46,627 bases of DNA, taken from positions 1 through 46,627 of the forward strand of contig JAATGR010000146.1 in the NCBI GenBank assembly GCA_015654575.1, read 5' to 3'. Under the pieces are notes generated by a model that worked only from the letters and a program-made list of their open reading frames with translations, was not told the DNA's origin and searched no databases. This DNA is from Actinomycetales bacterium (GTDB lineage Bacteria > Actinomycetota > Actinomycetes > Actinomycetales > Microbacteriaceae). Position 1 is the stretch's first letter. Each line of letters opens with the position of its first letter. The position numbers and the translations under genes are program-made. This document shows positions 8,267 through 38,062 of the stretch, one piece after another.

Positions 8267-8779
8267 TCAGGCCGTCGACGGCCAATCCTCGTCGCCCGGA
8301 ACGGGATCATGCAGGGGGACGACCAGCACCGGCCGGCGTTGGCGGTGGGTCAGGCGTGCGGCGACGGAACCGACGAAGAACTCGCGGATCGTCTCACCCA
8401 CCCCGCGCCGACGAGTGCCGACGACGATGACCGGGGAATCGAGCTGGTCGGCGAGATCCTTCAGGGCCGTCGCGGGATCGCCGACGAGGGAGCGGATCGT
8501 CCACCGGATGCCGCGCTGGTCGAGGCGCGCGGCGGCCTGCAACCGCACCTTCTCGACCGCGTCGGCCGCGTTCGCGATGTTGATGTCGATCGGCGCGGAA
8601 TGCGGTGTGCCGTCAGGGTCCTCGTAGGTCACGAACCGAGTCGCATCCACGGAGGCGATCACCAGTCTCGTGCCGAAGAGGGCGGCATAGCGCGCGGCTT
8701 CGTCGAGCAGCCGGTCGGGCAGCCCCGGGACGACCCCGACGACCACCGCTCCGGTCCATTCCGATGCATCCGACACCAT
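8267..8779 (-). CDS. universal stress protein (UspA family)
   Basis: 170 aa, VVVGVVPGLPDRLLDEAARYA...DSPVIVVGTRRRGVGE...GSVAARLTHRQRRPVLVVP. Confidence 0.88.
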   Translation of the reverse strand: MVSDASEWTGAVVVGVVPGLPDRLLDEAARYAALFGTRLVIASVDATRFVTYEDPDGTPHSAPIDINIANAADAVEKVRLQAAARLDQRGIRWTIRSLVGDPATALKDLADQLDSPVIVVGTRRRGVGETIREFFVGSVAARLTHRQRRPVLVVPLHDPVPGDEDWPSTA

Positions 8780-8914
8780 GCGATCCTCCCCGTCAACGCG
8801 GCGTCGCCGGCGGGCGCCGTGATATTGTGAATGCTACTCTTAGCGGCCTTGCAGCCGGACGAATGCGACGGGCTCCGGCACTGCCCGCGACATCAGAACG
8901 TGAGGGGGTCTCGC

Positions 8915-9109
8915 ATGGGGCGTGGCCGTCAAAAGGCGAAGCACACCAAGATCGCCCGTGAGCTCAAGTACGACACCTACTCGGTGAACCTGGGAGCCCT
9001 GGAGCGCGAGCTCGGGCATCCGGCGACCGGTGAAACCGAGTACGTCGACAAGTGGGCGGACGAATACAGCGACGAAGACGAGGGCGAAGAGCGAGTCGAC
9101 GCGCACTGA
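8915..9109 (+). CDS. DUF3073 domain-containing protein
   Basis: MGRGRQKAKHTKIARELKYDTYSVNLGALERELG... is the characteristic DUF3073 N-terminus; GAGGGGG RBS upstream. Confidence 0.92.
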   Translation: MGRGRQKAKHTKIARELKYDTYSVNLGALERELGHPATGETEYVDKWADEYSDEDEGEERVDAH

Positions 9110-9144
9110 GAGGTGTGGATCCGGTTCTCGGGACGGGAGCCGTC

Positions 9145-10605
9145 TCAGGACACCTGCGACCCTTCCACCCAGTCGAGATACTCCTCGGTGACGGTCCCCG
9201 TCACGTAGCGACCGTCGAAGCAGCTCATGTCGAGATCGTCGAGGTCGGATCCTTCGAGGATGGCCGCCTTCAGGTCCTCGACCTCCTGGTAGACCATGTA
9301 GTCGGCGCCGAGTTCGCTCGCGATCTCGGGGATCGTCCGCCCGTGCGCGACGAGCTCGTGCCGGGACGGCATGTTGATGCCGTACACGTGCGGATAGCGC
9401 ACCGGGGGCGCGGCGCTCGCGAAGGTGACGCTCTTGGCCCCGGCATCGCGGGCCATCTGAATGATCTCCTTGCTCGTCGTCCCCCGGACGATCGAGTCGT
9501 CGATGAGCAGCACGTTCTTGCCCTTGAACTCGCTCGGCATGGCGTTGAGTTTCTGACGGACGCTCTTCTTGCGCACCGCCTGTCCCGGCATGATGAAGGT
9601 GCGACCGACATAGCGGTTCTTGTAGAAGCCCTCACGGTATTCGAGGCGGAGCTTGCGGGCGACCTGCATCGCTGCGGGACGCGCGGAGTCGGGGATCGGC
9701 ATCACGACGTCTATGGCGCCGATCGGGGTGTGCTTGGCGATGGTGTCCGCCAGGCGCTCCCCCATGCGCAGCCGCGCGTCGTACACCGAGATGCCGTTCA
9801 TCACCGAGTCCGGACGGGCCAGGTACACGTACTCGAACGAGCAGGGCACGAGTCGGGGGCTCACGGCGCACTGACGCGTGTGGAGCGTTCCGTCCAGGCC
9901 GATGTAGACCGCCTCGCCGGGGAGCACGTCGCGCACGACGTCGAAGCCCGCGTTGTCGAGCACGAGCGACTCCGACGCCACGATCCACTCGTCGGCACCG
10001 TTCGCAGCCTTACGCGTGCCGAGGATGAGCGGACGGATGCCGAACGGGTCGCGGAAGGCGAGCAGCCCGTACCCGGCCAGCAGCGCGATGGCGGCATAGG
10101 ATCCCTCGACGCGCTCGTGCACGCGGGCGACGGCCTGGAACACCTGCTCGGGGTCAAGTTCCAGTCCGCCGATCGCCGCCTGCAGCTCGTTGGCGAGCAC
10201 GTTCACCAGCAGCTCGGTGTCCGAGCTGGTGTTCAGATGCCGGCGGTCCTTGTGGAACAGCTCGTCGGTGAGCTCGCGCGTGTTGGTGAGGTTCCCGTTG
10301 TGCACGAGGACGATGCCATACGGGGCGTTCACGTAGAACGGCTGAGCCTCCTCCTCGCTAGACGCGGTGCCCTTCGTCGCATACCGGCAATGCCCCAGGC
10401 CGATCGTCCCCAGCAGCGATCGCATGTCACGGGTGCGGAAGGCTTCCCGCACCTGACCACGGGCCTTGTGCATGTGGAAGACGCCGCTCGGCTCCGCCGT
10501 GGAGATCCCGGTCGAGTCCTGTCCACGGTGCTGCAGCAGCAGCAGGCCGTCATAGATGTCCTGGTTGACCGAGCCCTGCCCGACCACGCCGACGATGCCG
10601 CACAT
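9145..10605 (-). CDS. purF: amidophosphoribosyltransferase
   Basis: MCGIVGVVGQGSVNQDIYDGLLLLQHRGQDSTGI...; catalytic Cys2, PRPP motif VLLIDDSIVRGTT. ATG at 10605. Confidence 0.97.
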   Translation of the reverse strand: MCGIVGVVGQGSVNQDIYDGLLLLQHRGQDSTGISTAEPSGVFHMHKARGQVREAFRTRDMRSLLGTIGLGHCRYATKGTASSEEEAQPFYVNAPYGIVLVHNGNLTNTRELTDELFHKDRRHLNTSSDTELLVNVLANELQAAIGGLELDPEQVFQAVARVHERVEGSYAAIALLAGYGLLAFRDPFGIRPLILGTRKAANGADEWIVASESLVLDNAGFDVVRDVLPGEAVYIGLDGTLHTRQCAVSPRLVPCSFEYVYLARPDSVMNGISVYDARLRMGERLADTIAKHTPIGAIDVVMPIPDSARPAAMQVARKLRLEYREGFYKNRYVGRTFIMPGQAVRKKSVRQKLNAMPSEFKGKNVLLIDDSIVRGTTSKEIIQMARDAGAKSVTFASAAPPVRYPHVYGINMPSRHELVAHGRTIPEIASELGADYMVYQEVEDLKAAILEGSDLDDLDMSCFDGRYVTGTVTEEYLDWVEGSQVS

Positions 10606-26058: not shown

Positions 26059-27375
26059 TCAGGGGCGCGCCAGGCCAAGGTGCTCGCGCAGCGTCGTACC
26101 GGCGTACTCCCGGCGGAACAGGCCGCGCCGCTGCAGGATCGGGACGACCTGCTCGGCGAACTCCCTCAGCTGCCCGGGGATCGTGTGCGGCATCACGTTG
26201 AACCCGTCGGCGGCGCCGGATTCGAACCACGACTGCAGTTCGTCGGCGATGCGTTCGGCCGAGCCGACCACCTGATGGTGGCCACGCTGGGCGGCGACCC
26301 GTCGGGCGAAGTCACGCAGCGTGAGCTTCTCGGTCTCGGCGATGCGCTTGTAGACCGCGAGGCGCGACTGATGGCCCTGCACGGTTTCGGGGTCGGGCAG
26401 GGTGGGAACCGGGCCGTCCAGCGGATAATCCCGTAGATCGAGCTGCACCACATCCCGGATGCTGCCGAGGATGTGCTCGGGCTGCACCGTCTCGATGAGC
26501 TCCGCGTTGATCCGATGGGCCTCCTCATCGGTGGAACCCACCACATACGAGAAACCGGGCATGATCACCACGTCGGTCTCGGCGCGGCCGGCGGCGCGCA
26601 CCCGCCCCCTGATCTCGTCGGCGAACGCGACGCCGGATTCGAGAGTGGTCTGGGCGGTGAAGATCATCTCGGCGTGCGCTGCAGCGAAGGCCATCCCGCG
26701 ACCGGAGGACCCCGCCTGCACCCGCACCGGTTCCCCCTGCACAGAGCGACGGAACTCGCCCGGGCCTGCGACCTGGAAATACCGGCCGTGATGGTCTATC
26801 GGGCGCACCGAGCCGGGCCGGGTGTAGACGCCGGCCTCACGATCCCAGGTGACCGCATCCTCGTCCCAGCTGCGCCACAGCGCCCGCACGATCTGCAACG
26901 CCTCCTCGGCGATCTCGTAGCGCTCGTCGTGCGGAAGGTGATCGTCGAGGCCGAAGTTGCGCACCGTGTCGGCGGAATAGCTGGTGACGATGTTCCACCC
27001 GGCACGCCCCCGCGACAGGTGGTCGAGCGCGAGCACCTGTCGCGCGATGAGATAGGGATGCTGGAACGTCGTGGACGCGGTGGCGACGATGCCGAGTCGC
27101 TCGGTCACCGCGGCGAGCGCGCCGCCCAGGGAGAACGGCTCGAAGGCGTCGACCGGGGGTCCGTACTGCCAGCTGCCGTCGGCGCCGGCCGTGAGCTTGT
27201 CGGCGATGAAGAACGCGTCGAACCTGGCCTGCTCGATGATGCGGGCTGCCTCGTGGTATTCGCGGAAGTCGTTCGTGCTGTCGGCGGGGATCTCGGGCAG
27301 TCGCCACGCCGAGGCGAGCTGCCCATGGGGCAACGCGAACAGGGCGAGATGCAACTGGCGGTGGGTACGGGTCAC
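26059..27375 (-). CDS. LLM class flavin-dependent monooxygenase (NtaA/SnaA/DszA subgroup)
   Basis: HLALFALPHGQLASAWRLPE...FREYHEAARIIEQARFDAFFIADKL...VATASTTFQHPYLIARQVLALDHLSRGRAGWNIVTSYSADTVRNFGLD. Confidence 0.9.
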   Translation of the reverse strand: MTRTHRQLHLALFALPHGQLASAWRLPEIPADSTNDFREYHEAARIIEQARFDAFFIADKLTAGADGSWQYGPPVDAFEPFSLGGALAAVTERLGIVATASTTFQHPYLIARQVLALDHLSRGRAGWNIVTSYSADTVRNFGLDDHLPHDERYEIAEEALQIVRALWRSWDEDAVTWDREAGVYTRPGSVRPIDHHGRYFQVAGPGEFRRSVQGEPVRVQAGSSGRGMAFAAAHAEMIFTAQTTLESGVAFADEIRGRVRAAGRAETDVVIMPGFSYVVGSTDEEAHRINAELIETVQPEHILGSIRDVVQLDLRDYPLDGPVPTLPDPETVQGHQSRLAVYKRIAETEKLTLRDFARRVAAQRGHHQVVGSAERIADELQSWFESGAADGFNVMPHTIPGQLREFAEQVVPILQRRGLFRREYAGTTLREHLGLARP

Positions 27376-27386
27376 AGGAGCTCCAG

Positions 27387-27405
27387 TTAGGTAAGGTTTA
27401 CCTTA
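27387..27405. promoter_or_regulatory. DtxR/IdeR-like palindromic box between LLM monooxygenase and CitE-like genes
   Basis: TTAGGTAAGGTTTACCTTA; 15/19 to TTAGGTTAGGCTAACCTAA by eye. Contains perfect dyad TAAGGT-TT-ACCTTA. Confidence 0.75.
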
Positions 27406-27436
27406 TCAACATATCCCGCCACCCCGAGGGCACACC

Positions 27437-28258
27437 ATGACCGCGACGCGTCCGATCGATCCCGCGCTGGCCCGCACCTGGTTGATGCTCTCGGGTCGCC
27501 CCGGCCGCGATTACGCCTCCGCCGTCGCGGGCTCCGCCGCCGATGCCGCGGTGATCGACCTCGAGGACGCCGTTCCTCCGTCGGAGAAGGAGGCCGCCCG
27601 CGCCCGCCTGGTTGCCTGGCTGTCCTCCGGCGGCCGGGCCTGGGTGCGGATCGACGCGAGGGGGACGGAGCACTGGGCGGCATCCGTGAACCTGCTCCGG
27701 CGCACCGCCGGCCTCGCCGGTGTCGTGCTGGCCAAGACGGAGGCACCCGGCGAGGTCGCGGATACCGCGATCGCCCTTCCGGGAGTGCCGATCGTGCCGC
27801 TGATCGAGTCCGCCCGGGGCCTGACCCGGGTCGAGCAGATCGCGGCCACGCCGGGGGTGCTGCGGCTCGGATTCGGCACCGGCGACTTCCGCCGGGACAC
27901 CGGTCTGCCCGATACCGCGACGGCGCTGGCGTACGCCCACGGCCGGATCACCGTCGCCGGGGCTGCGGCGGGCCTGACCGGGGCGATCGACGGCGGAGCG
28001 GTCGGCGAGGACGCGACGGCGCTGCGGGAGCAGGCCGCGGTGGCTGCGACACACGGCTTCACCGCCAAATTCGCGCTGCGCGAGTCCCAGATCGCCCCGC
28101 TGAACCTCGCGTTCACGCCCTCCGCCGACGAGGTGGAGGAGGCCGCCGCCGCCGTGGCGGCCTCGGAAGCCGCGGCCGGTCCCGGAGGCGGCGATGATCT
28201 GCCCCGGCTGCTGATCGCCCGACGGCTGCTCGCCCGCGCCCACGCCTACGGGCACTGA
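27437..28258 (+). CDS. HpcH/HpaI aldolase / citrate lyase beta-like (CoA ester lyase)
   Basis: MTATRPIDPALARTWLMLSGRPGRDYASAVAGSAADAAVIDLEDAVPPSEKEAAR...VPLIESARGL... Confidence 0.85.
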   Translation: MTATRPIDPALARTWLMLSGRPGRDYASAVAGSAADAAVIDLEDAVPPSEKEAARARLVAWLSSGGRAWVRIDARGTEHWAASVNLLRRTAGLAGVVLAKTEAPGEVADTAIALPGVPIVPLIESARGLTRVEQIAATPGVLRLGFGTGDFRRDTGLPDTATALAYAHGRITVAGAAAGLTGAIDGGAVGEDATALREQAAVAATHGFTAKFALRESQIAPLNLAFTPSADEVEEAAAAVAASEAAAGPGGGDDLPRLLIARRLLARAHAYGH

Positions 28259-28275
28259 CAACGAAGGAGACACAC

Positions 28276-29082
28276 ATGTCGCACAGCTCGGAACCGGGCG
28301 CCGCATCCCCCACCGCCGCCCCGGTTGTCCGCTGGAACGGCGGCCTGCAGCAGGAAGCAATCGACCTCCTCATTTCCGGCGGGCGCATCGTCGTCAGCCC
28401 GACCAAGGTCGGCTACATCATCCTCGCGACAGACCGGCGCGGGCTGGAGCGCAAGTTCGAGGTCAAGAACCGCCCCCGCCGCAAACCCGGCGTGGTGCTG
28501 TGCAGCTCGCTCGACCAGCTGACGACGCTGGCCGAGCTCACCGGCGAGGCCGAGGCGTTCTACCGCGACCACTGGGAGCAGGACGTGCTGATGGGCTGCA
28601 TCCTGCCGTGGCGCCAGGATGCACGAAGCCTCCTGCCCGAAGGAGCAGCGGAGTTCGCAACCGACGGGCGCGGCACGAGCTGCTTCGTGGTGCGCTTCGG
28701 CACGCCCGGCGAGCGGATCGCGCAGGAACTCTGGGAGCGCGACCGCACGCTGTTGTTCGCGAGCTCGGCGAATCCGTCGGGGCAGGGCAACCGCGGGGTC
28801 GTCGCGGGCATCGGCGACCGCATCGCGCAGGGTGTCGACCTGGTGATCGAGGCGGACGACTACGTGCGGTCCATCCAGCCAGAGGCCGATCGCCGGTACG
28901 AGCAGGGCGTGATGGTCTCATTCGTGGACGCCGACGGCCGACTCGTGCCCGAACAGCACGGCGAGCGGGGGGTGAGCCCGGTTCCGACGCTGATCCGAGC
29001 GGGACTGTCGCAGGATCGCATCCTGTCGAACCTCGCCGCGCGGTTCCCCAGCTGGGACTACCGCCACGGTCAGTACTACTGA
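28276..29082 (+). CDS. Sua5/YciO/YrdC family protein
   Basis: QEAIDLLISGGRIVVSPTKVGYIILATDRRGLERKFEVKNRPRRKPGVVLCSSLDQL...LLFASSANPSGQGN; distinct C-terminal tail PSWDYRHGQYY. Confidence 0.82.
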   Translation: MSHSSEPGAASPTAAPVVRWNGGLQQEAIDLLISGGRIVVSPTKVGYIILATDRRGLERKFEVKNRPRRKPGVVLCSSLDQLTTLAELTGEAEAFYRDHWEQDVLMGCILPWRQDARSLLPEGAAEFATDGRGTSCFVVRFGTPGERIAQELWERDRTLLFASSANPSGQGNRGVVAGIGDRIAQGVDLVIEADDYVRSIQPEADRRYEQGVMVSFVDADGRLVPEQHGERGVSPVPTLIRAGLSQDRILSNLAARFPSWDYRHGQYY

Positions 29083-30460: not shown

Positions 30461-30895
30461 CTAGCCCAGTAGCGCCCGCAGCCCGGCCATCAGACCGTCG
30501 AGCTCGGCGTCCGCCACGCCCGCGGCCAGACGGGTCTGCAGCTGCGCGACCATCGGTCGCAGGCGCGCCCGCTCCGCCCGCCCGAACTCGGTCAGCGAGA
30601 CCGTGTTCCGCCGCGCGTCCGCCGCATCCCGCTGTCGCCCGATGAGTCCGCGCCGCTGCATCCGCGAGACCAGGTCGGCGATGGTAGAGCGGTCGAGGTC
30701 GACCGCGTCGCACAGCTCGCGCTGACTCGCGTCGCCACGATCGAGCACCGCAAGCACGGAGTATTGCACGCTCGTGATCTCCGTCGAGACCATCTCGGCC
30801 CACAGGGCGACATGGCGCTGCTGCGCGCGTCGGATGAGATAGCCGAGGTGGACCTCGGGCTCGGACGCGTCGACCGAGGTGACGGGACTCCGCAT
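30461..30895 (-). CDS. MarR family transcriptional regulator
   Basis: HLGYLIRRAQQRHVALWAEMVSTEITSVQYSVLAVLDRGDASQRELCDAVDLDRSTIADLVSRMQRRGLIGRQRDAADARRNTVSLTEFG. Confidence 0.92.
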   Translation of the reverse strand: MRSPVTSVDASEPEVHLGYLIRRAQQRHVALWAEMVSTEITSVQYSVLAVLDRGDASQRELCDAVDLDRSTIADLVSRMQRRGLIGRQRDAADARRNTVSLTEFGRAERARLRPMVAQLQTRLAAGVADAELDGLMAGLRALLG

Positions 30896-30902
30896 CCGCC
30901 CA

Positions 30903-32801
30903 TCATCGCAGGACGACGGCGGGCTCCCGCAAGAAGCCGGCGAAGAAGTCGGTCACCTCGGCGCGAGCCGCCAACGGGAGGACCTGCGCGACGTACTGAT
31001 CCGGGCGGACGATCACGATCGCCCCGGCGGGGTCTATCCCGCGCTCGACGAAGATGTCAGTCTCGGCGTCGCGCGCCCAGGCCTTCTCCCAGTCCTGCAG
31101 GCCGAGCGGCCCGGTGCACGGCAGCAGCACCGCGGGCAAGCCGGTCGCGTCGATCTCGTGGTGACCGGCGCGGAACACCCCGTGAAACTCGATCGTCGCG
31201 TCGATGTCGTCGCCGCCACGCGCGAACCGTTGCAGCGGCGAGTCGGCCGCCTCGCCCAGCCAGGTCGCGAAGCCGCGCAGCCCTGAGCCGTCGGCGTCGC
31301 CGAAGGCGTAGAGGCGCCAGCGGCCGTCGGCCCGGTGGGCGTGGCCCAGCTGCATCCGTCTCGCATCCGCCAGTCGGACGACGGGCGCGGAGTGGAACCG
31401 GGTGCCGATCACGAAACCGCGCGCGAGCGCCTGGTGCTCGTCCGTTCCGGTCAGCGCCGACGGCCTGCACTGCGTGGCGAGGCCCGCGGTGTAGCGCCCC
31501 TGACGCGTGAACTCCGCCTGCATCGCCTCGGCGGTCACGCCGCCCTGTTCCGGGTGCTCCGGATCGAGAACCGGTTGGGCGACGAACGCCGACCAGAACC
31601 GGTCGAAGTCGATGAGATCCTTCGCCACCCGCCGACGTTCCGCGGAGTAGGAGTGCAGCAGCGCCGCATCCGACCGTCCCTCCAGCACCGCGGCGAGCTT
31701 CCAGCCGAGATTGAACGCGTCCTGCATAGACACGTTCATGCCCTGTCCGGCCTTCGCCGAGTGTGTGTGACAGGCATCGCCGGCGATGAACACGCGCGGC
31801 AGACGCCCGGTCGCGTCGTCGGCGGGGACGTCGTCGAACCTATCCGCCAGCCGCTGTCCCACCTCGTAGACAGACGACCAGGCGACCGATCGCACGTCGA
31901 TCGAATAGGGGTGCAGGATGGCGTTCGCCACCTCCGTGAGCTGCTCGACCGTCGTGTGGCGGATCGCCGTATCACCCGCCTGCACCTCGCCGAGATCCAC
32001 GTAGCAACGCACCATGCTCCCGCCCTCGCGCGGGATCATCATCAGCGTGCCCTTACCGGCCGACTGGATCACGTTCTTCGTGCGCCAGTCGGGGAAATCG
32101 GTGACCGCCAGCACGTCCATGACTCCCCAGGCGTGGTTCGCGGCGTCTCCCTCGAGGTGACGACCGATCGCGCAACGCACGTTGCTGCGGGAACCGTCGC
32201 AGCCGACGACGTAGCGCGCCCGCACCGTGAACTCCTGACCGCTCCCGCTGCGGCGCAGCGTCGCCTCGACCGGATGCTCCCCCTCCCCGACGGTGAGCGT
32301 CACGAACTCGACACCGTAGTCCGGCCGAAGCCTGCTCGAGGATTTCGCCGCGTTCTCGAGCAGGTAGTGCTGCATCCGCGCCTGGTTGACGATGACGTGC
32401 GGGAACTCGCTGAGCCCCGCGGGAGTGTCCTCCACCCATCCGCTGCGAACGATGCGTGAACGGTCCGTGTCGGAGGGACTCCAGAACCGCACCTCGCCTA
32501 CCCAGTACGCCTCGCGCAGCAGCGCATCGGCCAGCCCGAACGCCTCGAACATCTCGACCGTGCGGCAGGCGACACCGTCGGCGTGCCCGAGCTGCAGCGG
32601 GGTCTCCCGGCGTTCGACGATCCGCGTCTGGATGCCGGGGAACGCGGCCAGCTGCGCAGCCAGCACGGAACCCGCGGGGCCGGTGCCGACGATCAGCACG
32701 TCGACCTCTCCGGGGAGGTCCTCGCTCCGGCGCTGCGCCTGTGCGGATGCGGGGTGGATGTCCGGGTCGCCCGGGCGGTAACCGTCTCGATAGAACTGCA
32801 C
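30903..32801 (-). CDS. FAD-dependent aromatic hydroxylase, 3-hydroxybenzoate 4-monooxygenase (MobA)-like
   Basis: GTG 32801 with GAAGGAG RBS: VQFYRDGYRPGDPDIHPAS...EVDVLIVGTGPAGSVLAAQLAAFPGIQTRIVERRETPLQLGHADGVACRTVEMFEAFGLAD...RVFIAGDACHTHSAKAGQGMNVSMQDAFNLGWKLA...VVRPDQYVAQVLPL; FAD motifs and C-terminal thioredoxin-like domain, close to remembered MobA sequence. Confidence 0.85.
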   Translation of the reverse strand: MQFYRDGYRPGDPDIHPASAQAQRRSEDLPGEVDVLIVGTGPAGSVLAAQLAAFPGIQTRIVERRETPLQLGHADGVACRTVEMFEAFGLADALLREAYWVGEVRFWSPSDTDRSRIVRSGWVEDTPAGLSEFPHVIVNQARMQHYLLENAAKSSSRLRPDYGVEFVTLTVGEGEHPVEATLRRSGSGQEFTVRARYVVGCDGSRSNVRCAIGRHLEGDAANHAWGVMDVLAVTDFPDWRTKNVIQSAGKGTLMMIPREGGSMVRCYVDLGEVQAGDTAIRHTTVEQLTEVANAILHPYSIDVRSVAWSSVYEVGQRLADRFDDVPADDATGRLPRVFIAGDACHTHSAKAGQGMNVSMQDAFNLGWKLAAVLEGRSDAALLHSYSAERRRVAKDLIDFDRFWSAFVAQPVLDPEHPEQGGVTAEAMQAEFTRQGRYTAGLATQCRPSALTGTDEHQALARGFVIGTRFHSAPVVRLADARRMQLGHAHRADGRWRLYAFGDADGSGLRGFATWLGEAADSPLQRFARGGDDIDATIEFHGVFRAGHHEIDATGLPAVLLPCTGPLGLQDWEKAWARDAETDIFVERGIDPAGAIVIVRPDQYVAQVLPLAARAEVTDFFAGFLREPAVVLR

Positions 32802-32891
32802 GTCGTTCTCCTTCGAACCTGCGTCGGCGTGGCGCGTCGCCCAATATACTCCGCACCCCAACCATTTGTCCCATCGGCTTTTGGTGGCAGG

Positions 32892-32903
32892 ATTGGCGAC
32901 AAT
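32892..32903. promoter_or_regulatory. candidate operator copy A (ATTGGCGACAAT) between the hydroxylase and ligJ-like genes
   Basis: Exact reverse complement of the 12-mer at 33988-33999. Confidence 0.6.
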
Positions 32904-32939
32904 CACCTGCCGGCCTCCACGGCCGAGAATGGAGCCCTC

Positions 32940-33947
32940 GTGATCATCGACATCCACGGTCACTACACGACCGCACCGGCCCCGCTGCAGGCCTGGCGGG
33001 ACGCGCAGGTCGCCGCGTTCGATGCGGGGACCGCGGCGCCGGCATCCGACCCGGTGATCACGGACGACGAGATCCGCGAGAGCATCGAGCCGAACCAGCT
33101 GCGCCTGATGGACGAGCGCGGGATCGATGTGACCGTGTTCTCCCCCCGCGCCTCATTCATGGCGCACCACATCGGGGACTTCGAGGTATCGGCACGGTGG
33201 GCCCGCATCTGCAACGACCTGTGCGCACGCGTCGCCCGCCTCTACCCGGGCCGCTTCGCACCCGCCGCGATGCTGCCCCAGTCGCCGGGCGTCGATCCCG
33301 CGACCTGCGTGCCCGAGCTCGAGCGGGTCGTCGACGAGCTCGGCGCCGTCGCGATCAACCTGAACCCCGATCCCTCCGGGGGCCTCTGGACCTCGCCGCC
33401 GCTGACCGACCCCTCGTGGTTCCCGATCTACGAGAAGATGATCGAGCACGACATCCCCGCGATGGTGCACGTCTCGACCAGCGTCAACCCGGCGTTCCAC
33501 ACCACCGGCGCGCACTACCTGAACGCCGACACGACGGCGGTCATGCAGCTCATCCAGGGCGACCTCTTCACCCGCTTCCCCGGGCTGCGGCTGGTCATCC
33601 CCCACGGCGGCGGGGCCGCACCGTACCACTGGGGGCGGTTCCGCGGGCTGGCGATGGCCCTGGGCAAGCCGGACCTCAGCGAGCACATCCTCGGCAACGT
33701 GTTCTTCGACACCTGCGTCTACCACCAGCCCGGGATCGACCTGCTGCTGGAGGTCATCCCGACCGAGAACATCCTGTTCGCCTCCGAGATGATCGGCGCC
33801 GTCCGCGACATCGACCCGAGCACCGGGCACTACTTCGACGACACCCGCCGTTACGTCGAATCGGCCGACATCCCGGCCGACCGGCTGCCGCTGATCGAGG
33901 AGCACAACGCGCGGCGCGTGTACCCCCGGCTGGCCGCCTGGGTCTGA
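32940..33947 (+). CDS. ligJ: amidohydrolase-family 4-oxalomesaconate hydratase (LigJ-like)
   Basis: GTG 32940: MIIDIHGHYTTAPAPLQAWRDAQ...LRLMDERGIDVTVFSPRASFMAHHIGD...LVIPHGGGAAPYHWGRFRG...ENILFASEMIGAV; followed by LigK- and GalD-like genes. Confidence 0.85.
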   Translation: MIIDIHGHYTTAPAPLQAWRDAQVAAFDAGTAAPASDPVITDDEIRESIEPNQLRLMDERGIDVTVFSPRASFMAHHIGDFEVSARWARICNDLCARVARLYPGRFAPAAMLPQSPGVDPATCVPELERVVDELGAVAINLNPDPSGGLWTSPPLTDPSWFPIYEKMIEHDIPAMVHVSTSVNPAFHTTGAHYLNADTTAVMQLIQGDLFTRFPGLRLVIPHGGGAAPYHWGRFRGLAMALGKPDLSEHILGNVFFDTCVYHQPGIDLLLEVIPTENILFASEMIGAVRDIDPSTGHYFDDTRRYVESADIPADRLPLIEEHNARRVYPRLAAWV

Positions 33948-33987
33948 CGACTCCCAGACGGCGGGACCGATGACCAGACCCCCACGA

Positions 33988-33999
33988 ATTGTCGCCAAT
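33988..33999. promoter_or_regulatory. candidate operator copy B (ATTGTCGCCAAT) upstream of the ligK-like gene
   Basis: 12-mer identical to copy A on the opposite strand; overlaps the dyad CGCCA-ATAA-TGGCG. Confidence 0.6.
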
Positions 34000-34069
34000 A
34001 ATGGCGGATATAGTAGCGGGGGCGCACGTCGACGACGACCGCCCACACACCTCAGAAGGAGTGCCCAGG

Positions 34070-34774
34070 ATGACCGGGATCGTGGTGACCGACATCGCTC
34101 GTGCCGACAGCGAGATCATCGACAGGCTGGCCCGGCTCGGGTCGGCGACCGTGCACGAGGCGCAGGGTCGCACCGGCTATGTCGGCGTCGGCGTCCATCC
34201 GATCCAGCATGGCGCGGCGATCGCCGGCAGCGCGATCACCGTGCTCACCGCTCCCGGCGACAACCTCATGGTCCACGTCGCGATCGAGCAGTCGCGCTCC
34301 GGCGACGTTATCGTCGTGGTCCCCCGCGGGGAATCGCCGTACGGGCACATCGGCGAGCTCATGGCGACGCAGATGCAGGTGCGCGGCGTGCGCGGCTACG
34401 TCACCTCCGCCGGGGTCCGCGACACGACGGAGCTACGCTCGATGGGGTTCCCCGCGTGGACGACACACATCGCCTCCGAGGGGTGTGTCAAGGACACCCC
34501 CGGCTCCGTCAACGTGCCCGTCGTGCTCGGCGCCGCGCTGGTTAACCCCGGAGACATCGTGGTCGCCGACGACGATGGCGTGACGATCGTGCCGCGCGAG
34601 AACGCCGCCGAGGTGCTCGCCGCCGCCGAGGCTCGCGCCGCCAAGGAGGCCGCGAACCGGAAGCGTTACGAGGCGGGCGAGATCTCGATGGACATCAATG
34701 CGCTGCGGCCCGTGCTCGACGAGCTCGGCGTGCGCACCGTCACCCAGGCGGAGTACGACGGTGGCCGGCACTGA
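34070..34774 (+). CDS. ligK: 4-carboxy-4-hydroxy-2-oxoadipate aldolase (LigK/GalC, RraA-like fold)
   Basis: MTGIVVTDIARADSEIIDRLARLGSATVHEAQGRTGYVGVGVHPIQHGAAIAGSAITVLTAPGDNLMVHVAIEQ...GVRGYVTSAGVRDTTELRSMGFPAW. Confidence 0.88.
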   Translation: MTGIVVTDIARADSEIIDRLARLGSATVHEAQGRTGYVGVGVHPIQHGAAIAGSAITVLTAPGDNLMVHVAIEQSRSGDVIVVVPRGESPYGHIGELMATQMQVRGVRGYVTSAGVRDTTELRSMGFPAWTTHIASEGCVKDTPGSVNVPVVLGAALVNPGDIVVADDDGVTIVPRENAAEVLAAAEARAAKEAANRKRYEAGEISMDINALRPVLDELGVRTVTQAEYDGGRH

Positions 34775-35843
34775 CGAGGTGCGCGACGGCATCCCCTGCA
34801 TGCTCCTGCGGGGAGGCACCTCAAAGGGTGCGTACTTCCTCGCCGACGACGTCCCCTCAGACCCGGACGAGCGCGATGCACTGATGCTGCGGATCATGGG
34901 CAGCCCCGACCCGACCCAGATCGACGGTCTCGGGGGCGCCCATCCGCTCACCAGCAAGGTCGCGATCGTCTCCCGGTCCGAGGAGCCCGACGTCGACATC
35001 GACTACCTGTTCCTGCAGGTCGTGGTCGATGAGCCCGTCGTCGCGACCGCCCAGACCTGCGGGAACCTGCTCGCCGGTGTCGGACCCTTCGCCATCGAAC
35101 GGGGCCTCGTCCCCGCCGGGGAGCCGACCACGACCGTGCGGATCCGACTCGTGAACACCGGAGACATCGCCACCGCCGTCTTCGCGACCCCGGACGGCCG
35201 GGTCGACTACGACGGCCCCGCAGCCATCGACGGCGTGCCCGGCTCCGCCTGCCCGATCGACCTGGAGCTGACGGCGCCTCCGGGCAAGCCCCTGCTGCCC
35301 ACCGGCAACCCCGCCGACGAGATCGACGGCCACCGCGTCACCCTGGTGGACAACGGGATGCCGGTCGTGCTGCTGAACGCGGCGGAGTTCGGCGTCGCCG
35401 GCACCGAGTCGCCGGCAGAGCTGGAGTCCCGCCCCGAGCTGGCGGCGCGGCTGGAGCGGGTGCGGCGGGCGGGCGGCACGCTCATGGGCCTCGGCGACGT
35501 CGCGAACCAGACGGTGCCGAAGATGTTCCTCCTCTCCGCCCCGACCGCGGGCGGGGCGATCTCGACGCGCGCGTTCATCCCGCATCGGGTGCACACCTCG
35601 GTCGGCGTGCTGATGGCCGCGTCCGTCGCGGCCGGCATCCGCGTTCCCGGGGCCGTCGGCTCCGACCTGGCGGAGCTTCCGGCCGACGGCGATCCGATCG
35701 GCGTCGAGCATCCGAGCGGCGTCTTCCCCGCGGAGGTCACCGTGCAGCAGGACGCCGACGGTGCGTGGCACGCCACATCGCTGTCGCGGCGCACCGCCCG
35801 CAAGATCTTCGACGGCCGCGTCTTCCCCCGGCCCCGGCTCTAG
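34761..35843 (+). CDS. galD: PrpF-family protein, 4-oxalomesaconate tautomerase (GalD-like)
   Basis: GTG 34761: IPCMLLRGGTSKGAYFLADDVPSDPDERDALMLRIMGSPDPTQIDGLGGAHPLTSKVAIVSRS...QTCGNLLAGVGPFAIERGL; overlaps ligK by 14 nt. Confidence 0.88.
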   Translation: MAGTDEVRDGIPCMLLRGGTSKGAYFLADDVPSDPDERDALMLRIMGSPDPTQIDGLGGAHPLTSKVAIVSRSEEPDVDIDYLFLQVVVDEPVVATAQTCGNLLAGVGPFAIERGLVPAGEPTTTVRIRLVNTGDIATAVFATPDGRVDYDGPAAIDGVPGSACPIDLELTAPPGKPLLPTGNPADEIDGHRVTLVDNGMPVVLLNAAEFGVAGTESPAELESRPELAARLERVRRAGGTLMGLGDVANQTVPKMFLLSAPTAGGAISTRAFIPHRVHTSVGVLMAASVAAGIRVPGAVGSDLAELPADGDPIGVEHPSGVFPAEVTVQQDADGAWHATSLSRRTARKIFDGRVFPRPRL

Positions 35844-35878
35844 CTCACCGCTTTCCCCCACGTCAGAGAGGACCCACC

Positions 35879-36907
35879 ATGGCACATCCAGAGAGCTTCG
35901 ATCTCGCCCACCTCGGCGGCATCGAACTGTTCACCCCAAAATTCGACGAGAGCCTGCATTTCTTCCGTGACCTGCTCGCGATGCGCGAGGTCGCGCGCGT
36001 GGGCAACTCGGCGTATCTGCGCACCTGGGACGAGTACCAGCTGTACTCGCTCAAGCTCACCGCCTCCGACACGAACGGCGTCGGGCGGACCCTGTTCCGC
36101 ACGACCAGCCAGGAGGCCCTCGACCGCCGGGTCGCCGCAATCGAGGCGACCGGTCTCGGCCACGGCTGGCGCGATCCCGAGGTGGGCGTGGGCCGCTCGT
36201 ACGAGTTCGAGGACCCGGACGGGCACCTCATGGGCATCTACTACGAGACCGAGCTCTACGTGCCCGACGACGAGGACCGCCCGGCGCTGAAGAACCAGGC
36301 GTCGCGGTTCCCCGGCCGGGGCATCAACGTGCGCCGCCTCGACCACATCAACTACCTTGCGAGCGACGTGAACGCGGCCGGCGAGTTCTGGCGCGACGTG
36401 ATGAAGGCGCGCGAGTCGGAGCGCGTGAAGCTGGATGCCGGCGGCTACGGCGCCTGGTGGTTCCGCTTCCACCAGAAGTCGTATGACGTCGTGTACTCCG
36501 ACGACTGGTCGCGCGAGCGCGGCCGGTTCCACCACTTCGCGTTCGCACCCGACAACCGGGAGGACATCCTCAAGGCGGCGGACATCTGCCTCGAGAACGG
36601 CATCTACATCGAGTACGGCCCGTACAAGCACGCCATCAACCAGACCTTCTTCCTCTACGTCTGGGAGCCCGGCGGCAACCGCATCGAGTTCGCGACCGCG
36701 CAGGCGCGGCTCATCCTCGACCCGGACTGGCCGGTCGTGGAGTGGACCCAGGCCGAGCGGGCGAAGGGCCAGGCCTGGGGCATGAAGACCGTGGCGACGT
36801 TCCACACGCACGGCACCCCGTACGTGCACGACCAGGAGGCGATCGACGCCGCCGCCCTGGCGGGCGTCCCCTACGAGCCGACCGACGCGAACGAGCTGAG
36901 CGAGTAG
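35879..36907 (+). CDS. two-domain type I (VOC superfamily) extradiol ring-cleavage dioxygenase
   Basis: MAHPESFDLAHLGGIELFTPKFDESLHFFRDLLAMREVAR...RLDHINYLASDV...FHHFAFAPDN...GPYKHAINQTFFLYVWEPGGNRIEF; candidate metal ligands H, H, E and an extradiol-type H-x7-LY-x2-EPGG-x3-E signature. Confidence 0.87.
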   Translation: MAHPESFDLAHLGGIELFTPKFDESLHFFRDLLAMREVARVGNSAYLRTWDEYQLYSLKLTASDTNGVGRTLFRTTSQEALDRRVAAIEATGLGHGWRDPEVGVGRSYEFEDPDGHLMGIYYETELYVPDDEDRPALKNQASRFPGRGINVRRLDHINYLASDVNAAGEFWRDVMKARESERVKLDAGGYGAWWFRFHQKSYDVVYSDDWSRERGRFHHFAFAPDNREDILKAADICLENGIYIEYGPYKHAINQTFFLYVWEPGGNRIEFATAQARLILDPDWPVVEWTQAERAKGQAWGMKTVATFHTHGTPYVHDQEAIDAAALAGVPYEPTDANELSE

Positions 36908-36916
36908 TCGCGACAG

Positions 36917-36971
36917 CGCCGCATCCGTCTGGGGCTCCCGCCGGTGGGGTCAGCCCCAGACGGATGCGGCG
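36917..36971. terminator. bidirectional terminator-like perfect inverted repeat (20-bp arms, 15-nt loop)
   Basis: CGCCGCATCCGTCTGGGGCT (36917-36936) / AGCCCCAGACGGATGCGGCG (36952-36971), between convergent genes. Confidence 0.85.
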
Positions 36972-38062
36972 GTGTCGACGACCAGCCGGATCTTCGCCCA
37001 CTGCTCATCCTCGGTGAGCGCGTTGCCCTCCTCTGTGGAGGCGAAACCGCACTGCGGACTCAACGCGAGCTGCTCCAGCGGGGCGAAGGCCTGCGCCTCG
37101 TCGATCCGTCGGCGCACGGCATCCGCGTGCTCGAGTCCGCCCGTCTTGGTCGTGATCAGCCCGAGCACCGCGATCTTGTCGCCCTCGGGCAGGAAGCGCA
37201 ACGGCTCGAAGCCACCCGCGCGCTCGGAGTCGTACTCGAGGAAATAGCCGTCGTAGCCGGTGTTGCCCAAAAGCTGCTCGGCGACCGGCTCGTAACCGCC
37301 GGAGGAGATCCACGTGGAACGGAAGTTGCCACGGCACACGTGCGTGGTCACGACGAGGTCATCGGGCTTGCCGTCGAGGACGCGGTTCAGCAGCGTCGCG
37401 TAGCGCTCGGCGATGCCGTCCGTCCGGATGCCGCGCTCCCGCGCCTTCCCGAGCTCGACCTCCGAGCACAGGTACGCCCAGGCGGTGTCGTCGAACTGCA
37501 GGTAACGTGCGCCCGCGTCGTAGAAGGCGGCGAGCGCATCGCGGTAGGCCCGCACCAGGTCGTCGACGATGGCATCCCGACCGTCGTAGAACGCCGGGTC
37601 GACGGCATCGGGCTCAAGCCGGAAATCGAGCACGGTCGGCGCCGGGATCGTGAACTTCGGCACCGTTCCGACCGACGCCGCATCCTTCTGCAGCGCCCGG
37701 AAGTGGGCGAGGAACTGGTGGGCGTCGGAGAATCCGATGGGGCCGGAGACGCGGATGCCGCGGTGCCCCGTCTGCACGCCCTGGAACTGGATGCCGTGGT
37801 CGAGGTCGACGATGTCGACGCCGTCGAGACCGCCGAAGAAGTCGAAGTGCCACCAGGAGCGGCGGAACTCGCCGTCGGACGCGACCTGCAGGCCCGCGGC
37901 CGACTCCTTCGCGACAAGGTCGGCGACGGCGGCGTCCTCAACGGCGCGGAGGCCCTCCTCGGCGAGCTCGCCCTGCGCCCGGCGATGACGGGCATCGGCG
38001 AGCGGGGCGGGACGGAGGAAGCTGCCGACGATATCGGCGCGGAACGGCGGGCGAGCGGTCAT
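36950..38062 (-). CDS. cobalamin-independent methionine synthase C-terminal domain-like protein (MetE/YxjG family)
   Basis: MTARPPFRADIVGSFLRPAPLADARHRRAQGEL...DGEFRRSWWHFDFFGG...YLQFDDTAWAYLC...VCRGNFRSTW...LSPQCGFASTEEGN. Confidence 0.88.
   Translation of the reverse strand: MTARPPFRADIVGSFLRPAPLADARHRRAQGELAEEGLRAVEDAAVADLVAKESAAGLQVASDGEFRRSWWHFDFFGGLDGVDIVDLDHGIQFQGVQTGHRGIRVSGPIGFSDAHQFLAHFRALQKDAASVGTVPKFTIPAPTVLDFRLEPDAVDPAFYDGRDAIVDDLVRAYRDALAAFYDAGARYLQFDDTAWAYLCSEVELGKARERGIRTDGIAERYATLLNRVLDGKPDDLVVTTHVCRGNFRSTWISSGGYEPVAEQLLGNTGYDGYFLEYDSERAGGFEPLRFLPEGDKIAVLGLITTKTGGLEHADAVRRRIDEAQAFAPLEQLALSPQCGFASTEEGNALTEDEQWAKIRLVVDTAASVWG

Follow-up and report, generated by a model that had tools for sequence, protein, structure and literature searches.

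A VOC-type (type I) extradiol dioxygenase as the probable gallate ring-opening enzyme of a Microbacteriaceae gene cluster

How is 4-oxalomesaconate (OMA) formed by a gene cluster that encodes three OMA-processing enzymes and no LigB, LigC or LigI? This question is raised by contig JAATGR010000146.1 of an Actinomycetales bacterium from the family Microbacteriaceae (assembly GCA_015654575.1), which we analyzed over its 46,627 nucleotides (the window). An earlier note, made from the DNA letters, had recognized six genes there, encoding a MarR regulator, a MobA-like hydroxylase, LigJ, LigK, GalD and a two-domain VOC extradiol dioxygenase, and had seen no LigC, LigI or LigB-type gene among them. 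It had proposed that the VOC enzyme converts a trihydroxybenzoate to OMA, replacing a LigB-type gallate dioxygenase. Profile and structure-library searches bore out the gene calls, as all six are intact open frames with strong family or structure matches, and likewise the three absences. The central proposal is now strongly supported by comparative genomics, by gallate-forming neighbors (LigM/DesA and tannase) and by active-site residues peculiar to the clade. As far as sequence comparison can tell, the cluster is very probably a gallate catabolic module in which a VOC (type I) protein opens the ring in place of the LigB superfamily.

The presence of an OMA tautomerase (GalD), an OMA hydratase (LigJ) and a 4-carboxy-4-hydroxy-2-oxoadipate aldolase (LigK) makes the cluster gal-type. 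GalD also aligned to the (4E)-oxalomesaconate isomerase 6p3j with 363 bits. The set that marks protocatechuate 4,5-cleavage (lig/pcm), LigAB, LigC and LigI, is absent from the cluster and was not found in the source genome beyond generic LigC matches. The reactions of GalD, LigJ/GalB and LigK are established for these families and are assigned here by homology, and we infer the substrate, product and reaction directions of the following route from the gene content. Gallate would bind the active-site metal through two neighboring hydroxyls, and extradiol cleavage beside the carbon bearing the third hydroxyl would leave a carboxylate rather than an aldehyde. The product would then be OMA directly, as with DesB and GalA, and therefore neither the LigC dehydrogenase nor the LigI lactonase would be needed. 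GalD would tautomerize OMA, LigJ (GalB in most relatives) would hydrate it, and LigK would cleave the hydrated product to pyruvate and oxaloacetate. To our knowledge, gallate is the one among the known substrates that gives OMA directly. Its supply would be interchangeable, through LigM/DesA demethylation of syringate and 3-O-methylgallate or through tannase-type ester hydrolysis; in the source cluster it would probably fall to the MobA-like hydroxylase acting on 3,5-dihydroxybenzoate, the weakest step of the route.

A genome-wide search for LigAB, LigC and LigI had been proposed in the earlier note. In the source genome (82% complete, 273 contigs; 69% GC in the source contig), neither the LigB family (PF02900) nor LigI gave a match, and the LigC search returned only generic Gfo/Idh matches of ~30% identity. 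The same genome carries two adjacent intradiol dioxygenase matches (PF00775) that are PcaGH-like (protocatechuate 3,4-dioxygenase), and protocatechuate therefore has a route without the cluster. Homologues of LigM/DesA-type O-demethylases, MetF and PurU sit on other contigs. The seven LigM/DesA-like matches, on contigs C64, C37 and C68 (L109, L110 and L111), amount to an expanded O-demethylase set, and MetF and PurU both lie on C37. Contig C20 (3110-3634; L112) carries part of another VOC dioxygenase, which shares ~44% identity with the A. tumefaciens protein and is ended by the contig edge.

Because the source assembly is incomplete, we examined relatives. A single scan provided 80 genomes, nearly all Micrococcales, with a VOC gene of 69-91% identity, and we mapped the source-cluster genes and reference genes onto their VOC loci; the nearest relative of the source VOC protein came from Microbacterium fluvii. 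LigK and/or GalD stood beside the VOC gene in 70 of the 80 genomes, and the order LigK-GalD-VOC was kept across dozens of them. By gene, GalD was a neighbor at 70 loci, LigK at 65, a GalB-type PIG-L hydratase at 49 and LigJ at 16. With the arrangement kept in 70/80 genomes, a chance neighborhood was rejected. LigC was not present in the VOC cassettes at any of the mapped loci. Genes that could act upstream were also frequent, namely LigM or DesA (67 loci) and tannase-family genes (six loci), including a tannase-family esterase that adjoins LigK in Citricoccus (L014). The LigM assignment is firm (NF047885, 904 and 853 bits versus a cut-off of 580). A MetE-like gene lay beside the VOC gene at 26 of the 80 loci, and its product may accept methyl groups from methyl-tetrahydrofolate made by LigM/DesA.

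The ten genomes in which neither LigK nor GalD adjoins the VOC gene (solo genomes) proved informative. LigB-family proteins (PF02900) scoring at least 294 bits occurred in 9/10 solo genomes versus 0/70 cassette genomes, among which the top score was 231 bits (the genome of L034); 57 of the 80 genomes had no LigB-family protein whatever. This pattern gave a Fisher p = 4e-11, a value that ignores kinship and uses a threshold picked after seeing the data, and p = 4e-10 at a 200-bit threshold. At least eight changes of the solo state are needed on the tree. Six of the nine LigB-positive solo genomes, all six of those inspected, carry a full LigJ-LigK-LigI-LigAB-LigC operon, sharing 84-95% identity with its Arthrobacter keyseri counterpart. 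In a seventh (L065), a LigK match lies 2 kb from the LigB match, and two more (L004 and L007) have a LigB match and a less certain solo status, because short contigs end near the VOC gene. The tenth solo genome, Tersicoccus L036, encodes GalD-LigJ-LigK-LigI at another site. In the genomes inspected, then, the VOC gene is always accompanied by OMA-processing enzymes. In short, where a LigAB operon supplies the OMA enzymes, the VOC gene would seem to need no cassette of its own.

LigI was not found in 39 of the 43 cassette genomes searched, where nothing beyond weak amidohydrolase similarity appeared; the same query gave 88-92% matches in six solo genomes. Since the cassettes lack LigC and their genomes nearly always lack LigI, the VOC product most simply enters the pathway at OMA. 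A LigABCI set elsewhere in the genome, which the earlier note had named as evidence to the contrary, was absent from the source genome and from most cassette-bearing relatives.

The association extends to other phyla. OMA-processing genes were near a VOC gene of the same clade in 12 of 14 loci from Alpha- and Gammaproteobacteria, Thermus oshimai and Nonomuraea. GalB, LigK and GalD adjoin it in Roseibium, Thioclava, Rhizobium and Agrobacterium vitis, and lie within 4 kb of it in Pantoea piersonii. On the A. tumefaciens pAt plasmid the order is GalB-VOC-LigK-GalD-tannase, the tannase gene adjoining GalD, and a second A. tumefaciens has LigK and GalD next to the VOC gene. The adjoining genes are GalB-LigK-GalD in Nonomuraea, GalB and LigK in Thermus oshimai, LigJ and LigK in Methylobacterium, and LigK in Roseomonas. 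At two plasmid loci (Pantoea At-9b and Chimaeribacter), OMA-processing genes were not found near the VOC gene. The six loci of His-type comparators had no OMA-processing genes nearby; their neighbors were ordinary catechol or homoprotocatechuate genes, or unrelated ones.

We then considered the VOC protein itself. In Pfam it matched PF00903 and no other family, LigB (PF02900) included, and its full-length match to C23O/HPCD structures together with a His-His-Glu site in the C-terminal module identifies it as a two-domain type I enzyme. In an alignment and tree of 51 clade members and eight comparators, with residue equivalence taken through HPCD numbering, the metal ligands H156, H219 and E270 were kept in all 59 sequences. 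The position of the second-shell catalytic histidine, HPCD H200, is occupied by a tyrosine (Tyr202) in all 51 clade members, including the solved structure 9wgj, and by histidine in all eight comparators. R294 and Q298 are likewise present in 51/51 clade members and absent from 8/8 comparators, and K200 occurs in all 51 and in two comparators, so that a K200-x-Y202 motif replaces the catalytic histidine. An extradiol phylogeny, also suggested in the earlier note, places the protein in a separate Tyr clade (support 98/99), with uncertain rooting and long comparator branches. Y202 and K200 are candidates for gallate contact. An AlphaFold model of the protein (mean pLDDT 77.5) is poor around residues 301-317, too poor for an argument from the substrate pocket. 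The histidine exchange is notable because His192 of DesB, likened by its authors to His194 of BphC, has been mutated and discussed as catalytic (PMC3962378).

These data bear on a simpler reading, in which an ordinary (alkyl)catechol 2,3-dioxygenase lies beside OMA genes by happenstance. The best NCBIfam match of the VOC protein is indeed the catechol 2,3-dioxygenase model TIGR03211, although below cut-off (287 versus 320 bits), and AphC is its nearest Foldseek entry. However, in several phyla the clade gene lies close to OMA genes, which the comparators lack nearby, and tyrosine replaces the catalytic histidine throughout the clade. Plain catechol cleavage was rejected on residue signature and gene context, and we regard it as highly improbable. 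We lean towards the view that gallate dioxygenases evolved independently a second time as the VOC clade, whose members span Actinomycetota, Proteobacteria and Deinococcota. This class, marked by K-x-Y in place of the catalytic histidine, would use a Tyr-based variant of extradiol proton delivery that fits a ring with three hydroxyls and a carboxylate.

The source of gallate in the window is less clear-cut. The hydroxylase is 56% identical to the Comamonas 3-hydroxybenzoate hydroxylase 2dkh over its full length and keeps the residues aligned to D75, K247 and Y271, which we take to contact the substrate; it thus belongs to the MobA family. If it acted on 3,5-dihydroxybenzoate, as the earlier note had supposed, it would yield gallate, and we consider this somewhat likelier than the alternative; on 3-hydroxybenzoate it would yield protocatechuate. 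The supposition is no more than plausible, since the 3-hydroxybenzoate-site residues are kept, 3-hydroxybenzoate would lead to protocatechuate, and close orthologues are linked to a clade VOC gene in few genomes. Such orthologues (76-77% identity) lie directly 3' of the VOC gene in L008 and ~5.6 kb from a solo VOC gene in L006. The VOC enzyme type is widespread, and feeding from syringate or tannin is the commoner arrangement. LigM/DesA O-demethylation converts syringate to 3-O-methylgallate and then to gallate.

Several points weigh against assigning gallate to the VOC enzyme. No demonstrated substrate was found for any enzyme of the clade, and the depositors of 9wgj named it 'catechol 1,2-dioxygenase'. 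The 82% completeness of the source genome limits its absence calls. A tree-aware test of LigAB against the solo state yields three independent pairs whose branches are supported; no pair runs contrary, and three are too few to reach significance. LigM also makes protocatechuate from vanillate. Finally, five genomes (Kocuria, Rothia, Tersicoccus, Sinomonas and Enteractinococcus) carry LigI without LigAB, next to the cassette in L021 and L027, as would fit cleavage of 3-O-methylgallate to 2-pyrone-4,6-dicarboxylate (PDC).

The last two points each lead to a different substrate. With LigM supplying protocatechuate from vanillate and the MobA-like hydroxylase, with its 2dkh-type substrate residues, supplying it from 3-hydroxybenzoate, the VOC enzyme could be a protocatechuate 4,5- or 2,3-dioxygenase. 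Cleavage at 4,5 needs LigC and LigI, however; the cassette has neither, and almost every cassette genome searched lacks LigI. A 2,3-cleavage product is not on the path to OMA; the PcaGH-like genes of the source genome and the tannase neighbors, which indicate gallate, also argue against protocatechuate, and we judge it very unlikely. A DesZ-like enzyme that cleaves 3-O-methylgallate to PDC or an OMA methyl ester, with gallate as a lesser or additional substrate, would suit the LigM/DesA neighbors as well as the five LigI-bearing genomes. This is also unlikely, if less so, given the lack of LigI in most cassette genomes searched, the ability of LigM itself to turn 3-O-methylgallate into gallate, and tannase and MobA-like neighbors that give no 3-O-methylgallate. 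The LigI homologues of these five genera, accompanied by LigJ/LigK and not by LigAB or LigC (L137 9300-10220, L138 10155-11051, L139 5161-6051 and L027), perhaps serve PDC salvage or direct 3-O-methylgallate cleavage.

Gallate as the substrate places the cluster next to known systems. DesB of Sphingobium SYK-6 and GalA of Pseudomonas putida KT2440 resemble it in the proposed conversion of gallate to OMA and in the accompanying LigJ/GalB, LigK/GalC and GalD. DesB, however, is a type II enzyme, and gallate dioxygenases are classed with the LigB superfamily (PMC3962378, PMC4250580). The type I VOC enzyme is unrelated to them in fold. The SYK-6 syringate/gallate and Pseudomonas gal clusters follow the same logic, from O-demethylation or gallate uptake through OMA to pyruvate and oxaloacetate (PMC12314914), and differ in the ring-opening enzyme, which a VOC protein replaces here. 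What would be new is an enzyme without homology to its counterpart in an otherwise known pathway. Published accounts group gallate dioxygenases under the LigB superfamily and name no trihydroxybenzoate as a VOC substrate (PMC4250580, PMC3962378, PMC12314914). Gallate cleavage to OMA is also described for the type II protocatechuate dioxygenase found in Pseudarthrobacter (PMC8431788). We found no VOC-type gallate dioxygenase in the literature, within mainly open-access coverage.

Among VOC enzymes, HPCD (1q0c) and MndD (1f1r) have the two-domain fold and His-His-Glu ligands in common with the source protein, and N158, W194, H251 and Y260 correspond to HPCD N157, W192, H248 and Y257. Identity to HPCD is ~25%, H200 is exchanged, and R243 and R293, which presumably bind the substrate carboxylate, are not kept; HPCD and MndD also belong to homoprotocatechuate breakdown rather than OMA processing. 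AphC and catechol 2,3-dioxygenases (7q2a, 3lm4 and 1mpy) are the best structural and nearly the best sequence neighbors, yet they have the catalytic histidine, lack R294/Q298 and fall in a separate clade. The one solved member of the Tyr clade is 9wgj, for which no paper or organism was traced. It does not appear among the leading Foldseek entries and is therefore probably newer than that library (ending 8 April 2026); parallel work on the clade may exist.

Features of the cluster are collected in Table 1. The hydroxylase and MarR genes are divergent from LigJ, LigK, GalD and VOC, and one promoter region is common to both arms. Exact matches to the 12-base ATTGGCGACAAT number just two in the window, each within an intergenic region of the cluster, and the second, inverted copy reads ATTGTCGCCAAT. 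Their positions before hydroxylase/LigJ and before LigK suggest joint control. As a candidate MarR operator the element is not conserved in relatives, and is weak evidence for that reason. MarR homologues adjoin the hydroxylase gene in L006 and L008. A promoter and terminator scan of the cluster added little.

Table 1. Features of the gene cluster in the window, and of an oxidoreductase gene at related loci
Feature	Position	Strand	Details
MarR-family regulator	30461..30895	-	Pfam MarR_2/MarR above cut-off; presumed cluster regulator
MobA-like FAD aromatic hydroxylase (3-hydroxybenzoate 4-hydroxylase family)	30903..32801	-	GTG start; 705 bits to 2dkh, full length
Candidate operator ATTGGCGACAAT	32892..32903	.	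divergent hydroxylase/LigJ promoter region
LigJ-type 4-oxalomesaconate hydratase	32940..33947	+	GTG start; 525 bits to 2gwg, 464 to 6dwv; Amidohydro_2
Candidate operator, second copy, inverted ATTGTCGCCAAT	33988..33999	.	upstream of LigK
LigK-type 4-carboxy-4-hydroxy-2-oxoadipate aldolase	34070..34774	+	NF006731 284 bits vs cut-off 179; 3noj 239 bits
GalD-type 4-oxalomesaconate tautomerase	34761..35843	+	GTG start; NF033377 452 bits vs cut-off 440
Extradiol dioxygenase of the two-domain VOC kind (type I), proposed to act on gallate	35879..36907	+	best solved relative 9wgj, 361 bits
MetE-like protein (cobalamin-independent methionine synthase catalytic domain)	36950..38062	-	Meth_synt_2; PRK06520 470 bits; role inferred
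DUF1932 oxidoreductase	L092 3399-4286; L095 534-1409; L098 5163-6038; L132 10855-11622; L039 1976-2860		

Other genes were noted around the VOC loci. An oxidoreductase of the NAD(P)-binding DUF1932 family stands beside VOC cassettes in several phyla, and at 29 of the 80 Micrococcales loci. In Thermus oshimai (L132), a DUF6282 protein (8588-9508) lies between VOC and GalB/LigK. Just upstream of the source cluster, positions 26059-29082 encode an NtaA/DmoA-type FMN monooxygenase, a CitE-like lyase and a YrdC/Sua5-like protein, whose link to the cluster was not found in relatives.

Gallate is a product of plant tannin and lignin breakdown, and the degradation of tannins and of syringyl lignin meets there. 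If the VOC clade does open this ring, many genes of soil, plant-associated and clinical bacteria that are now labelled 'catechol 2,3-dioxygenase' or 'VOC family protein' would be gallate dioxygenases, and the syringate pathway of Micrococcales would be complete on paper. The natural His-to-Tyr exchange would open the mechanism of type I extradiol cleavage to a direct test, and lignin valorization would gain a non-LigB enzyme for OMA or PDC production.

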